Source: Pseudomonadota bacterium | Lineage (GTDB): Bacteria > Pseudomonadota > Gammaproteobacteria > Burkholderiales > Rhodocyclaceae | DNA length: 64,000 bases | NCBI GenBank assembly: GCA_018262095.1 | Contig: JAGTRW010000003.1 | Location: forward strand, 62,001 to 126,000 | Direction: 5' to 3' | In this document: positions 38,345 through 53,631 of the stretch, piece by piece | Numbering within the stretch: the stretch's first letter is position 1 | Layout: each line of letters starts with the position of its first letter | Program-made: the position numbers and the translations under genes | The notes under the pieces: model-generated | What the model was told of the DNA's origin: nothing | The model's input: only the letters and a program-made list of their open reading frames with translations | The model's database searches: none

Positions 38345-38428
38345 TGACTTACGTTCCTGGCGCACATGAACACGGAGACTGGCTCGAACCGACCCTGAGC
38401 CGACCTTCAGGCTTTTGGAAAGCAGACG

Positions 38429-38527
38429 TTCGAACGTTTGACGTGAGGGGCTGCCGTAGCGGCGAAGCCTCGAAGGGAACTCACAAGCGCAGCTTGTGGG
38501 CAGTCCCTCTCGACGGAATTATTAGGC
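38429..38527 (-). other. attC-like recombination site, cassette 1
   Basis: Minus strand: GCCTAAT AATTCCGTCGAGAGGGACTGCC...CACAAGC-TGC-GCTTGTG...GGCAGCCCCTCACGTCAAAC GTTCGAA; R''/L''/L'/R' order with an extrahelical A in GGGACTGCC versus GGCAGCCCC. Confidence 0.6.
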
Positions 38528-38537
38528 ATTCTTGGAG

Positions 38538-39341
38538 CTACCATGTCTTTCTGCTCCGAAATAGCGCGTCATCATTATAAAAAATGGCAAATATTTCGGA
38601 GAAGTAAGGTATTTCTTCTCGGCCGATAGCTCTGGCTGGCCCCTCAAGCTTTCCTAGCAACTCGACCCAGTAACGGATTATCTGAAGAACGTAAAACTGT
38701 CTATATTGACGGACGGATTCAAAAATACCGGTTCGAATGCTTGCTTCTTCAAAGTCAGTTAATTCTGAGCCTGTTTCAGTTGTGTGAAAAAGAACGGCCC
38801 AGTTTTTGGCGGCCTCGGCCAGCATCACAGCTCGGCCAAAGATGGCCGCTTTTTTTCGTATACTTACCCGTTTTTCAAAAATTGGAAGATCTACTTCTTT
38901 AAACCAGCGAGAAATAGGATCGTCAGTCTGGAAACTGCCGACAAGGTAATTTATATTTGCGTATCTATCACCTTCCGCGAATGAATGCAGAATATCCATA
39001 ATTGCCGTATGCGTTGGGTCGGAAAGTGATTTTAGATAAGAAAACTGGAATCCTCTTTCTATGACTACTGACTGCGATTTCTGGTATAGAAGTACGAGTT
39101 TGTGCCCAATTTCTTTTTTCAAGAATTCGAAGCCGGGGAATTTTCCGGAGTGCCTTATGTAGTAATCAAGAATAAGGCTCAGCTTTCCGATACGTTCCAG
39201 TCCTGTGGAGAGGCTGATGAATGACTGAAAGTAAACACCTTTTGTCGCGTAGTTGGCGTTTCTAATTTCAGATGCGCCGGCACTAAGCATTTCTTTGGTA
39301 AAAGCGGCTTCTTTAAGCAAAGCGTGAAAAGTTTGATTCAT
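38538..39341 (-). CDS. Hypothetical cassette protein, predicted alpha-helical
   Basis: 267-aa ORF bracketed by ATTAGGCATT (38521-38530) and AATGCCTAAT (39364-39373). Confidence 0.7.
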   Translation of the reverse strand: MNQTFHALLKEAAFTKEMLSAGASEIRNANYATKGVYFQSFISLSTGLERIGKLSLILDYYIRHSGKFPGFEFLKKEIGHKLVLLYQKSQSVVIERGFQFSYLKSLSDPTHTAIMDILHSFAEGDRYANINYLVGSFQTDDPISRWFKEVDLPIFEKRVSIRKKAAIFGRAVMLAEAAKNWAVLFHTTETGSELTDFEEASIRTGIFESVRQYRQFYVLQIIRYWVELLGKLEGPARAIGREEIPYFSEIFAIFYNDDALFRSRKTW

Positions 39342-39393
39342 AACTCGCGCTCAATCTAGATCAAATGCCTAATGTTCAAGGTTAGGGGGAGCG

Positions 39394-39975
39394 TCATTTG
39401 GCGAACCGAACTCGGTTGGTTAGCAGCTCATGTTGATTGAATATGTGCTCCGCCAACTCAAGGTGGTAGGCGGTCAGTTCATCATCCGCCATTCCACCGC
39501 GCTCATATTCCTCCCGAGAAGTTCTTTGGTATAGGACAATCAACTCTGGCGGAGCAAGATGAGCCTGTTTCTTGATAACCTCGCCAATTTCCGAAATTGG
39601 AAATCCTGGGCCGTAGTCGATACCAACAGACGGCTCAGAAACGCCATGATCGAACAAAGCAGCGAAGCCCCCCTTCATCTTGGACTTCACGTACCGTCGT
39701 TCTTTGAATATGGCTACGGCGTGATCGAAGCGCTGCTGAAATGTTCCGTACTTCGTTAATGTGCACGAGGAAATGTGAATATCGAGCAGCAAGGAAAGGA
39801 GTGGCGCGTAGAGATGCTCCAAGGATTGGCAGTCTCGGGAGTACGTGAGATCGCGCCTACCTTCTTTCAAACCTTTTCGATATGCCCATTTGTAGGCGCC
39901 GATGATTGCGCCAACAACGCTGCCAATTAGCGCAAATACTTTTCCTGCGAGAGTAAGAATTTCCATTGGTTCCAT
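39394..39975 (-). CDS. Hypothetical cassette protein with N-terminal TM helix
   Basis: 193-aa ORF; bracketed by GTTAGGG (39381-39387) and CCCTAAC (39989-39995). Confidence 0.7.
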   Translation of the reverse strand: MEPMEILTLAGKVFALIGSVVGAIIGAYKWAYRKGLKEGRRDLTYSRDCQSLEHLYAPLLSLLLDIHISSCTLTKYGTFQQRFDHAVAIFKERRYVKSKMKGGFAALFDHGVSEPSVGIDYGPGFPISEIGEVIKKQAHLAPPELIVLYQRTSREEYERGGMADDELTAYHLELAEHIFNQHELLTNRVRFAK

Positions 39976-40019
39976 TTGCGCAAGAAAGCCCTAACGTGAA
40001 GTGAACACCATTTCATCCG

Positions 40020-40056
40020 GTCGACAGATTATTGAACTGTCCGATAATCTGTCGAC
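40020..40056. repeat. Perfect 13-bp inverted repeat, 11-bp spacer
   Basis: GTCGACAGATTAT-TGAACTGTCCG-ATAATCTGTCGAC. Confidence 0.75.
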
Positions 40057-40194
40057 GATTTGTAGTGCATTGATCTTAGATAGAGTTAAGCCATATCGAT
40101 ATTTTGCCATGTCGCACAATCTTTTTCCATACGCCAATGACTGCTTTCGGAACAAATGACCAATAACCTGAGTTGGCCGACAACAGCCAGAATC

Positions 40195-40281
40195 GATGAC
40201 CTTAGCATTGATGGTGATCGACCGAAAATCCGCGTGCGTTCTCCCGGCCCGTCAAGGTTTAGAAAAGCAGCTTTTCAAATG
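40195..40281. repeat. Inter-cassette repeat unit, copy 2
   Basis: gatgaccttagcattgatggtgatcgaccgaaaatcc... matches 40896-40990. Confidence 0.6.
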
Positions 40282-40332
40282 AAGCTAAGAGGCTGCCCAT
40301 TTAGGGCAGTCCCCTTGAGCGTAAAGTTATAC
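40274..40332 (-). other. attC-like recombination site (59 bp), cassette 3
   Basis: Minus strand GTATAAC TTTACGCTCAAGGGGACTGCCC TAAAT GGGCAGCCTCTTAGCTTC ATTTGAA. Confidence 0.55.
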
Positions 40333-40342
40333 AAGGCTTGGG

Positions 40343-40828
40343 TTATTCCTCTTTATTGGCGTAACCCTCTAAATCATAAACCACTTGAATAAACAGATCT
40401 GCTAAGCCAACCCCATAATGTTCTCGCGCTTCAAAAAGGCTATCCGTTTCCTTTAGAGCACCATGCAGCTGCTCAAGACCATCGGTCATGTCATTGAAGT
40501 TGTCTCTACACTTGGCAATTAAGTTTAGCAACTCTCCTTTGTTTGGCTCATAGCCTAATTGGTGAGCAAATTTGTTTCTCACTGTATTGATACTCTGAAG
40601 GCAACTTGCAACCCCATCTGGAATCAACCCTAAAGAGTTAATAAATGATATTTTCCTACCATGGGTCAATGAAAGAAAATGCACTTTGAGCTTGCTATCG
40701 TAATTTACAGCTATCTCTTCAAGAAGATGCTCAACGACCAAATGCCCGATAACAAATCCAGTCAAGATATCTGAGTCATCAATTTTATTAAACAAAAAAT
40801 CTTCATATTTGTTTCCATAGGAAGACAT
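40343..40828 (-). CDS. HEPN-like protein (putative RNase), cassette-borne
   Basis: SINTVRNKFAHQLGYE contains an RX4H motif typical of HEPN; bracketed by GTTATAC (40326-40332) and GTATAAC (40864-40870). Confidence 0.65.
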   Translation of the reverse strand: MSSYGNKYEDFLFNKIDDSDILTGFVIGHLVVEHLLEEIAVNYDSKLKVHFLSLTHGRKISFINSLGLIPDGVASCLQSINTVRNKFAHQLGYEPNKGELLNLIAKCRDNFNDMTDGLEQLHGALKETDSLFEAREHYGVGLADLFIQVVYDLEGYANKEE

Positions 40829-40895
40829 TGTTATCTACCCCCTTGAGAATCTCTCGTAGAGTCGTATAACGTGAAGAGAACCTTAAATTTTAGTG

Positions 40896-40990
40896 GATGA
40901 CTCTAGCATTGAAGGCGATCGACCGAAAGCCCGGACGCGCTTACGACCCCTTGCGGTCAGTCAGGAATTTGGAATGCTGCCATTCGAATG
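40896..40990. repeat. Inter-cassette repeat unit, copy 3
   Basis: gatgactctagcattgaaggcgatcgaccgaaagccc...ttcgaatg. Confidence 0.6.
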
Positions 40991-41147
40991 AAAAAGATGG
41001 TAGATCAAAAAATCCGCAGGCGCCTTCCAACGATTTACGGCACAATTAACAATAATATAAAAAACGATTTCCTGAATTCGGAAGGTGCTTCGTATTCTCT
41101 GCTTACGCATCGAACTCGCAATATAGATTACGGCCTTAAGGCGTCGT

Positions 41148-42518
41148 CTAGAATTTAGTTCTGTTTTGCAAAATAGACGCCAGCGAAGATACATCGTCGA
41201 ACTTAACAGCGTTTGCAGTTATTTTTTTTATCGAAATGCTATCTCGATTAAGTTTTAACGTGACGGTCCTAGAAAAATTCCCTTCTGAGTGTATATCCGT
41301 CAAAGAAGGGGTGGCTATACGCGCCGCCTTGTGAAAAAGAACAACGTTACTGGCTTTTCCCGCGACTTGCGTCGAAGGAAAAACAATTCCATGGATTTGA
41401 GGTTCTCCCCTGGAGCTAAGATAATCAGCAATAACTTGTGTTGGCAAATAGCTCGTTAGCTCGTCATCAGGCATTACGGGCCTCGTCATCAGCTCTCGAA
41501 GAGATCGCAAAAATAGAATTCGACTGTGATATTTCTCATATGATGGATTAAAACGGCTAACCTCGTCAGTGTTTGATACGGCTTTTTCCAGCGCAGATAG
41601 ATTTAGCAGTCTGATCGGCTCAATAATATCAAACCGAGCAGTCACTACGTAACTTCCTACAGGCGGACGGACCTCAGAAAGTGCTGTGCGCTGTTGTAAC
41701 GCCCCGTAAAATACGGAAATTCCATTAGCATTCATGCGTCCCGCTTGACCTATTCCGTGAGGTGGCGGGCCAAGGTTTATTTCTGGATCAGCCAGCGCCT
41801 CGTTCATTTTCAGAAAGTCTTGAAAAACCCTGGCACGATACAGCGACTTGTATCGCGTGCGAGGCCCCCCTTTTGTCACTACCGGCTTTCCATTAATTGT
41901 GAAGTGGCGATCTATGCCATCAAACATTTCATGCAAAAAATCGATATTCGTTTGACTAAAATACCGAGCCTCATATTTCAACGCATGTTCAAATTTAGTC
42001 CATGTTTGAGGCCACTGACCTTGTGTGATGAACGCGGGCACAAATTTGACGTCATCGTCGAAATCACCTCGTTTTCCTTCAATATGGCACGTTGGATCCG
42101 CGTAGCGCCTTTTAAGGATGTCTGTAATATCGCTAGTTACGCTGGCGTGAAATGGGGCAAGCGATTGAATTACCTCAAACGCCGTTCGTGGCTTCGGGCA
42201 ATCAGTATCGTGTAGGGTATCGAGCCATTCAGCAGGAGGGTATGGCCAGACGTTGACAAATTGTTGTGCCAGGACCCGATCAACCAAAGTTGCTAAGTTC
42301 TCAATCGGAAAGCAGTAAGCCAACTCGTTGCAATAGAAGCAGCCATTGCCCCTGCTGCGGGTAATAATGGCTGATGAGAGGAATGCATCTTTCACGCAAT
42401 TGCTGCAGATCTCCCTGGTTAATTGCTTGGTCACGTTCTCTCCCGGTTGCGGGGTCGTGTCTTGAATTGAGGCATTTTCCCCCGAGTCATCGCATCCGGC
42501 GCAGTTCGCTTCGCTCAT
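41148..42518 (-). CDS. RES-domain protein with N-terminal zinc-ribbon and extra N-terminal domain
   Basis: CSNC...CFYC; YKSLYRARVF..., GRMNANGISVFYGALQQRTALSEVRPPVGSYVVTARFDI, IVFPSTQVAGKASNVVLF: R, E and S positions of the RES fold. Start at MSEANCAGC chosen. Confidence 0.8.
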   Translation of the reverse strand: MSEANCAGCDDSGENASIQDTTPQPGENVTKQLTREICSNCVKDAFLSSAIITRSRGNGCFYCNELAYCFPIENLATLVDRVLAQQFVNVWPYPPAEWLDTLHDTDCPKPRTAFEVIQSLAPFHASVTSDITDILKRRYADPTCHIEGKRGDFDDDVKFVPAFITQGQWPQTWTKFEHALKYEARYFSQTNIDFLHEMFDGIDRHFTINGKPVVTKGGPRTRYKSLYRARVFQDFLKMNEALADPEINLGPPPHGIGQAGRMNANGISVFYGALQQRTALSEVRPPVGSYVVTARFDIIEPIRLLNLSALEKAVSNTDEVSRFNPSYEKYHSRILFLRSLRELMTRPVMPDDELTSYLPTQVIADYLSSRGEPQIHGIVFPSTQVAGKASNVVLFHKAARIATPSLTDIHSEGNFSRTVTLKLNRDSISIKKITANAVKFDDVSSLASILQNRTKF

Positions 42519-42649
42519 TGTTCCCTTCGGCCTCCTACGAATGCCCGCTTTCGGCGTGCCTGCATGACCATCCGCTCCTGGCCGAACTCGGACGACTGAC
42601 GCTCTCGATGCATTTACCTCGCTACAATACTGCGCAGCGCAACAAAAGA

Positions 42650-43759
42650 TCAACCACTGATTACGGAGACTTGATTTTTCTTCTCAAACATTTTGCGCAC
42701 CAGATCAAGGTCTCCGCCCAAATAACGATTGGGCGAAATTTTGGTCATGATAAAAGGGGTTTCTCCATCAGGAGCAACCAATTGTGTTTTCATGAAATTC
42801 TTAAGCTCTATTTTTCGATGATCATCGTCGCGCAGCATGGCGAACCAGGTCCAATCAGTTGACGTCGGGAGGTCTTGTTTAATACCAGTAACACGGTCAA
42901 TCCTCGAAATATCAAGAGTGCTTTCAAATGTGGTGTTTATCAGAAGCTGGAACTTGTCATTTTTCCACCAATCTTCACCAAGCGTTTTTGATAGCTCGGC
43001 CATATAGACCATCGGCTGAATGGTGAAATGCATGTAATGTGCAGATTTGGCGCCACGCGCGATTTCATAATTAAGGTACCCATCTCCGCGCACGTCGTCG
43101 ATGATCGCGTCAAAAGTTTTCTTTCCCCACTTAATGTCTTCTTTGTTCCCGGTAATCACGCCGACCTGCATTACCGCGACGCCTGACCACACATAGTGGT
43201 TATTGCGTTTGGCGCTGGAATCCCAGAAGGCCTTTACTGGCTTGACCACTTGAGACATCCACCATTTGATCCGCGCGTCTTGTTCAGCAGTGGCCAGCGC
43301 CATGACCTGAAAATACGCCGTACTTGCCGCGGCAAGTTCCCACTTCTGGTGATAGCGACTTTGATCTTTATTGTTTACATCCCTCATTTCTCCAAGCAGT
43401 GCGTTATTCCTCGCCCATTCATCGATGAAAGCCACCGCACATTTTCCGTCATGGACGTTGCCTGTTTTTAGGTAATTGTTGGAAAGGGTGCTGAGCCTGA
43501 TGTTGAATGAATTGAATTCGGCGGTTGCTTTCTTGTAGGCCTTTAGGCGTTCAGGATCGATGACGGAATTGCTGCCCGCTTTATAAATTAGCGGTACCGC
43601 GATATCAACAGGCACCGGGGGCATGATTCCACATGACGCAGGAGTTTTATCAACAGCTTTTTGATACACCTCAGGTTTGCTTGCCTCGATATCTTTCAGT
43701 GAAGGCGCTGAAGCACAGCCGGTAAGGATCAAACAGGCCAGCCATAATTTGCTATTCAT
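42650..43759 (-). CDS. Alginate lyase (PL5/AlgL-like) lipoprotein
   Basis: Lipobox LTGCAS; SAKRNNHYVWSGVAVMQVGVITGNKEDIKWG...GDGYLNYEIARGAKSAHYMHFTIQPMVYMAE. Confidence 0.7.
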   Translation of the reverse strand: MNSKLWLACLILTGCASAPSLKDIEASKPEVYQKAVDKTPASCGIMPPVPVDIAVPLIYKAGSNSVIDPERLKAYKKATAEFNSFNIRLSTLSNNYLKTGNVHDGKCAVAFIDEWARNNALLGEMRDVNNKDQSRYHQKWELAAASTAYFQVMALATAEQDARIKWWMSQVVKPVKAFWDSSAKRNNHYVWSGVAVMQVGVITGNKEDIKWGKKTFDAIIDDVRGDGYLNYEIARGAKSAHYMHFTIQPMVYMAELSKTLGEDWWKNDKFQLLINTTFESTLDISRIDRVTGIKQDLPTSTDWTWFAMLRDDDHRKIELKNFMKTQLVAPDGETPFIMTKISPNRYLGGDLDLVRKMFEKKNQVSVISG

Positions 43760-43896: not shown

Positions 43897-43970
43897 GCGG
43901 GCGTCGTATAATGGTAATACCCTAGCTTCCCAAGCTAGAGCCGTGGGTTCGATTCCCATCGCCCGCTCCA
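43897..43970 (+). tRNA. tRNA-Gly (anticodon CCC)
   Basis: GCGGGCGTCGTATAATGGTAATACCCTAGCTTCCCAAGCTAGAGCCGTGGGTTCGATTCCCATCGCCCGCTCCA; full cloverleaf, encoded CCA. Confidence 0.97.
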
Positions 43971-53492: not shown

Positions 53493-53531
53493 CCGACGAT
53501 AGAATTAATCTTCGTTCTTGCGCAAGGTTCT

Positions 53532-53622
53532 GAAACAAGGCAAACCCATCGAAAGATGGGGACGCAAAACCACCGGCCTACTGGACGCTGCAAGCGGCGT
53601 CCCAAGGTAGCGGGGTCACCAG
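53532..53622 (+). ncRNA. Cyclic di-GMP-I (GEMM-I) riboswitch
   Basis: AAGGCAAACCCATC-GAAA-GATGGGGACGCAAAACCACCGGCCT...AAGGTAGCGGGGTCACC: all GEMM-I consensus blocks including the GNRA tetraloop. Confidence 0.93.
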
Positions 53623-53631
53623 GAAACCGCT

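Follow-up and report, generated by a model that had tools for sequence, protein, structure and literature searches.

Within a 64,000-nt stretch of a Rhodocyclaceae genome (assembly GCA_018262095.1, contig JAGTRW010000003.1, positions 62,001 to 126,000; hereafter the window), three consecutive minus-strand genes are each bracketed by short inverted sites resembling the cores of integron cassettes. Do these genes form a CALIN, that is, a cluster of attC sites lacking integron integrase, as defined for IntegronFinder, and how could cassettes have come to such a place? An earlier reading made from the letters alone (the sequence-only reading) had proposed a CALIN-like cluster. We arrive at a similar answer with a probability of about 0.9: the locus is a small, partly decayed CALIN in two blocks, without a neighbouring integrase. 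This is based on the attC structure, the matched cores, the presence of the same cassette in other arrays, and an intI gene elsewhere in the genome. The more important part of the finding, however, is not the CALIN itself but the shared end of its arrays, for which we coin the name array-terminal element (ATE).

Cassette boundaries and attC structure

The cluster lies in a low-GC island at ~38.1-43.9 kb, where the GC content is 42-50%, compared to 60-70% in most of the surrounding window; the AT-richer island of the sequence-only reading is thus real. That reading had also assigned to each of the three open reading frames (ORFs) a complementary core pair of its own, and a letter-by-letter check found all of them in place. 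The pairs are ATTAGGCATT (38521-38530) and AATGCCTAAT (39364-39373) for ORF1 (38538-39341), GTTAGGG (39381-39387) and CCCTAAC (39989-39995) for ORF2 (39394-39975), and GTTATAC (40326-40332) and GTATAAC (40864-40870) for ORF3 (40343-40828). All three are matched, and each is different. The ORF1 core begins with ATT, not GTT, and the ORF2 and ORF3 cores are each off GTTRRRY at one position.

We compared the longest inverted match of each ORF with Markov-shuffled flanks. The 10-bp match of ORF1 had P 0.0025, while the 7-bp pairs of ORF2 and ORF3 were not rare (P 0.13 and 0.14, respectively). For the next two ORFs on the same strand, encoding RES-domain and alginate-lyase-like proteins, the longest inverted matches are just 4 and 5 bp. 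By themselves, 7-bp core pairs are weak evidence, and the pairs alone are merely suggestive. Therefore, the case for cassettes rests on the attC structure and on the same cassettes elsewhere.

Rfam has no attC family, and we used two models of our own. R1 was built from 13 aligned attC sites of the genome's own integron on contig C77 (see below) and run unfiltered on the island; the pairing in this alignment has covariation behind it and is lost upon a shift by a single column. R2 comprises 102 attC matches, overlapping loci included, from this genome and its genus, with the window sites excluded. The features of the cluster are as follows.

38429-38527, minus strand: attC ending the ORF1 cassette (R2 24.7 bits, E 1.5e-5; R1 13.0 bits, E 0.04)
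38538-39341, minus strand: ORF1, 267 aa, gene of cassette 1, protein without assigned function; its remote relative (26%) likewise belongs to an attC array
39364-39373, minus strand: 5' core of the ORF1 cassette, reading ATTAGGCATT on the minus strand and exactly complementary to the AATGCCTAAT of the ORF1 attC
39367-39387, minus strand: ORF2/ORF1 junction CCCTAAC-CTTGAAC-ATTAGGC, R'' and R' without an attC hairpin (R1 6.6 bits, not significant)
39394-39975, minus strand: ORF2, 193 aa, protein without assigned function and without a Pfam, NCBIfam or PADLOC match
39989-40006, minus strand: start of the ORF2 cassette, left half GTTCACTTCACG followed by core GTTAGGG; 15-nt repeat (D10) shared with 40867-40881
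40274-40332, minus strand: attC ending the ORF3 cassette (R2 24.2 bits, E 2.1e-5; R1 16.9 bits, E 0.003)
40343-40828, minus strand: ORF3, 161 aa, gene of cassette 3, probable HEPN ribonuclease with RNKFAH (an RX4H motif); DUF4145/HEPN, HepS
40864-40881, minus strand: start of the ORF3 cassette, left half GTTCTCTTCACG followed by core GTTATAC, which is also found in L105, L107 and L108

With R2, the ORF1 and ORF3 attC sites are the sole matches below E 0.5 in 6 kb, on the expected strand, the next match having E 0.5. With R1, they are the top two matches of the island (ORF3, then ORF1), again on the expected strand and beginning exactly at the R'' cores. Both sites are at the cassette ends predicted by the sequence-only reading. 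The ORF1 attC consists of R'' GCCTAAT, an extrahelical A in GGG-A-CTGCC/GGCAG-CCC, and R' GTTCGAA, and the ORF3 attC of R'' GTATAAC, AAGGGG-A-CTGCCC/GGGCAG-CCTCTT, and R' ATTTGAA. The extrahelical A of both is also present in the genome's own attC sites. The two sites have the same orientation.

Of the three single-ORF units that had been proposed, ORF1 and ORF3 have their attC. The ORF2/ORF1 junction, on the other hand, is 21 bp long, which is too short for an attC, and keeps both cores. As the junction has lost its attC hairpin, ORF2 and ORF1 now form one fused unit.

The same cassettes and an integrase elsewhere

No integron integrase was found in the window, either with the TIGR02249 profile or by tblastn with IntI of C77, in agreement with the sequence-only reading. 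Still, "integrase-less" is true of the locus only, not of the genome. Contig C77 carries a complete chromosomal integron comprised of intI and at least 14 attC sites in one orientation; its intI scores 478 bits with TIGR02249 against a cut-off of 265, and this is the sole place in the genome above the cut-off. A search for more attC sites, which that reading had advised, yielded at least eight further places, on contigs C26, C33, C34, C10, C17, C4, C66, and C38. Two attC sites from different species, G000:C10:18679 (L031) and G006:C3 (L069:809), are followed by the shared sequence CTGTAGAAAAACCC(C/G)TTTTT, possibly an insertion-sequence end.

Cassette mobility predicts that the same cassettes occur in other arrays, and this prediction is independent of the fit to an attC model. 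Relatives of ORF3 with 78-81% identity are present in four gammaproteobacteria, Alteromonas, Nitrincola, Marinobacterium, and Vreelandella. GTTATAC precedes the relative in Alteromonas, Marinobacterium, and Vreelandella, and GTATAAC follows it in Alteromonas, Nitrincola, and Marinobacterium, with GGATAAC at this place in Vreelandella. Hence both cores are kept in Alteromonas and Marinobacterium, and Nitrincola has GTATAAC only. The DNA outside the cassette boundaries differs among the relatives. In Marinobacterium, ORF3 is the second cassette of an array, following intI and one cassette with attC; in front of the Vreelandella copy, R2 gives a match of 16.5 bits (E 0.016-0.03). At the ends of a relative on a Klebsiella plasmid (L102, NZ_CP057035.1; 77% identity), no cores or attC were recognised. 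The remote ORF1 relative, from another family of the class, sits between attC sites of its array. Single cassettes with breakpoints at the cores, as anticipated by the sequence-only reading, are therefore found for ORF3 in Alteromonas, Marinobacterium, and Vreelandella, in addition to the remote relative of ORF1.

Among 150 genomes of the family, ORF1 was found only in the window's own. Its structure prediction (pLDDT 42.6) was not used. ORF2 has one marginal match among 368 genomes of the class and weak relatives on rhizobial plasmids. PADLOC and NCBIfam searches of the cargo yielded no defence family. In the ORF3 family, the RX4-6H motif reads RN[KR]FAH, and none of the five sequences departs from R, N, and H. 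The DUF4145 profile scores 19.0 bits on ORF3, under the cut-off of 23.1, and the predicted structure, of low confidence (pLDDT 61.5), has its best PDB matches in HepS, a phage-defence HEPN protein, with probability 0.96 but E 0.18. Our best guess, and a fairly probable one, is that ORF3 encodes a HEPN ribonuclease; the motif and the weak profile and fold matches suggest that it is plausibly an antiphage or toxin-type gene. The cluster thus adds a putative HEPN-type cassette common to this bacterium and marine gammaproteobacteria.

The array-terminal element

Both window attC sites run straight into the ATE, represented by CGTTCGAACGTCTGCTTTCCAAAAGCCTGAAGGTCGGCTCAGGGTCG or a relative of CGTTCGAACGTCTGCTTTCCAAAAGCCTGAAGGTCGGCTCAGGGTCG. 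The ATE is 48 nt long and begins with the integron core GTTGAAC. An exact short-pattern search found two copies only, both in the window, and therefore a profile was needed. This profile, R3, is a sequence-only model from seven copies. The copies and an adjacent repeat are the following.

38390-38435, minus strand: ATE copy wA, directly after the ORF1 attC (R3 42.8 bits; in the R3 training set)
40195-40232, minus strand: 38-nt repeat of family D2 after ATE wC, 84% identical to 40896-40933
40240-40280, minus strand: ATE copy wC, directly after the ORF3 attC (R3 30.7 bits; in the R3 training set)
40896-40933, minus strand: 38-nt repeat of family D2 after ATE wU
40944-40989, minus strand: ATE copy wU, upstream of the ORF3 cassette, with no recognisable attC in front (R3 35.9 bits; in the R3 training set)
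L158:14215-14262, L159:15984-16031, and L156:2502-2546: further ATE copies

The CALIN-like cluster is thus supported, but as two arrays, each ended by an ATE, rather than one continuous array. The 280 bp after the ORF3 attC had been read as an insertion into that attC, which was dropped, as the stretch begins with an ATE. An ATE copy sits between ORF3 and the RES-domain gene. A third D2 copy is found on contig C4 (L037, ~974-1050), and conservation of D2 reaches ~100 nt or more in the two window copies and the C4 copy.

The ATE is also located directly after R2-aligned attC sites on C33, on C4, and in genome G027. R3 matches are present in 18 of 29 genus genomes, and at 9 of 26 independent loci an attC ends at the ATE start on the same strand. 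When the shared core was removed from the profile, 15 of 19 strong matches began 1-8 nt after an attC (8 of 12 for copies outside the training set). Several of the remaining copies seem, by eye, to be preceded by a degraded attC. In two genus relatives, the ATE ends complete integrons, with intI and two attC sites in G015 and intI and five attC sites in G027. The G015 locus (contig C105; L131/L158) is a chromosomal class-1-like integron with an attI1-like sequence, two attC sites, and one ATE. The 45 nt after the last attC are identical in pYKBP039, pPaeBURNS1, pKPC-1ac6, and the G015 attC array, and a 101-nt query from the Tn402-type array end matches 157 plasmid records, NC_001735 among them. 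ATE-like copies that no R2 match precedes are also present on Burkholderiaceae plasmids, and one of these copies has an intact ACGTTGAAC core. A search of 40 kb of C77 found no ATE.

Since the ATE begins with a core site, it would be the right-hand half of the site entered by the first cassette. It may be the former 3' flank of attI in a betaproteobacterial integron family, in which case CALINs with an ATE have lost intI, or else a dispersed target into which IntI puts cassettes. Both window arrays begin after the same 12-nt half-site GTTCWCTTCACG, of which no other exact copy was found in ~0.3 Mb of related loci. This, together with the presence of two arrays and an orphan ATE (wU) within 2.6 kb, makes repeated insertion likelier than a series of losses of whole integrons, though not decisively. 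Cassettes are reported to enter genomes at non-classical attG sites as well (Loot et al. 2024, as cited by others). Tentatively, and with considerable doubt, we suggest that the ATE could be a recurrent boundary or landing site for arrays, and that a trans-acting IntI inserting cassettes at this attG-like, sequence-conserved target, and not integrase loss alone, would create such CALINs. For the questions of where arrays stop and how CALINs arise, a conserved ATE gives a concrete boundary that can be tested. We found no description of the ATE in the literature searched, which was mostly open access, with older subscription papers on chromosomal class 1 integrons outside it, and its novelty is uncertain.

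Origin of the cluster and known systems

As a CALIN, the locus comprises one block with ORF3 as a single cassette and another with ORF2 and ORF1, two cassettes fused through loss of the attC hairpin between them. Each cassette would have arrived as a circle, and IntI, provided in trans or by an integrase that this locus has since lost, would have inserted it, using the folded attC strand and cleaving at G|TT. Because the last cores have decayed and one hairpin is gone, mobility of the block is probably poor now; both cores and the hairpin are retained by the ORF3 unit alone.

Several observations weigh against this reading. One of the three junctions (ORF2/ORF1) has no attC hairpin. The window attC sites score ~24 bits, compared to 32-87 bits for the genome's own array sites, and the E-values of the attC models are rough due to short calibration. 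The R2 scan of the whole genome did not list the window sites, the first look having scored 150 of 4388 candidates. Finally, we found no syntenic relative of the locus: 28 genus relatives lack the neighbouring 172-aa gene, and synteny does not hold for the MATE gene.

The surroundings of the cluster include the following features.

41148-42518, minus strand: RES-domain protein (57.9 bits), without matched cassette cores, within the low-GC island of the cluster
42650-43759, minus strand: alginate-lyase-like protein (49% GC) whose start is of the lipoprotein type; right end of the island
43897-43970, plus strand: tRNA-Gly(CCC), with the island on its 5' side
53529-53623, plus strand: c-di-GMP-I riboswitch (73 bits)

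The locus could be the remnant of one or two former complete integrons (intI, attI, cassettes, and ATE) that lost intI, rather than cassettes inserted away from an integron. As G015 and G027 show, the tail of a complete integron can be an array that stops at an ATE, and we regard this origin as a serious, if minority, possibility. However, the window contains no remnant of intI, several other attC places in the genome are also free of intI, and two arrays with an orphan ATE in 2.6 kb would require more than one integron side by side. Arrival of the array with a larger element, such as a transposon or an integrative and conjugative element, and not through IntI at the locus, would agree with the extension of the low-GC island to the RES and alginate-lyase-like genes (41148-43759), which have no matched cores. 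This is improbable, as none of the island ORFs searched with profiles was identified as a transposase or phage integrase, and long terminal inverted repeats did not turn up when the island was searched for repeats.

A genomic island of the ordinary type, without integron history and with core-like inverted repeats and terminator-like hairpins that arose by chance, would explain the 7-bp pairs of ORF2 and ORF3 (P ~0.13-0.14 alone) and the nearby tRNA-Gly. Yet two attC model matches with E ~2e-5 fall exactly at the predicted places, and ORF3 is a cassette in the intI array of Marinobacterium. Moreover, tRNA attachment usually involves the 3' end of the tRNA, while here the tRNA points away from the island. 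We consider such an island highly improbable, and tRNA-Gly was rejected as an attachment site because the island borders its 5' side.

The window CALIN is ordinary as a kind, and is one more example. Published CALIN searches required at least two attC sites, and one used a 20-bit threshold of a different model; here, two attC sites 1.75 kb apart have R2 scores of 24.7 and 24.2 bits, with no intI nearby. CALINs are common, also away from intI in other genera; they are present in about half of Xanthomonas genomes. Like them, the window cluster has two or more attC sites in the same orientation within 3-4 kb, with a single ORF in each cassette, a foreign base composition, and intI absent from the vicinity. 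It differs in the inter-cassette attC without a hairpin and in the two array ends within 2 kb, both arrays running into an ATE.

With the sedentary chromosomal integron of C77, the cluster shares the attC architecture (the extrahelical base and the TCAAACGTT right end) and cassettes without assigned function; unlike the cluster, C77 has intI, at least 14 attC sites, and no ATE in the 40 kb searched. Similar to the known fused gene cassettes (PMC4670013), ORF2 and ORF1 are joined after loss of the attC between them, but the window fusion keeps both cores, 7 bp apart, instead of removing them.

In Tn402-type class 1 integrons (R751, pYKBP039, pPaeBURNS1), as in the window, the last attC runs into an ATE, and over 45 nt the Tn402 copy does not differ from the ATE that ends the G015 attC array. 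By contrast, these integrons are mobile and carry intI1, tni genes, and resistance cassettes. Class 1 integrons are known to have originated from betaproteobacterial chromosomes (PMC5460862), and the shared 3' boundary fits this origin. An ATE shared by CALINs, by integrons on chromosomes, and by Tn402 class 1 integrons would show which sequence Tn402 captured as the chromosomal ancestor of class 1 moved into it.

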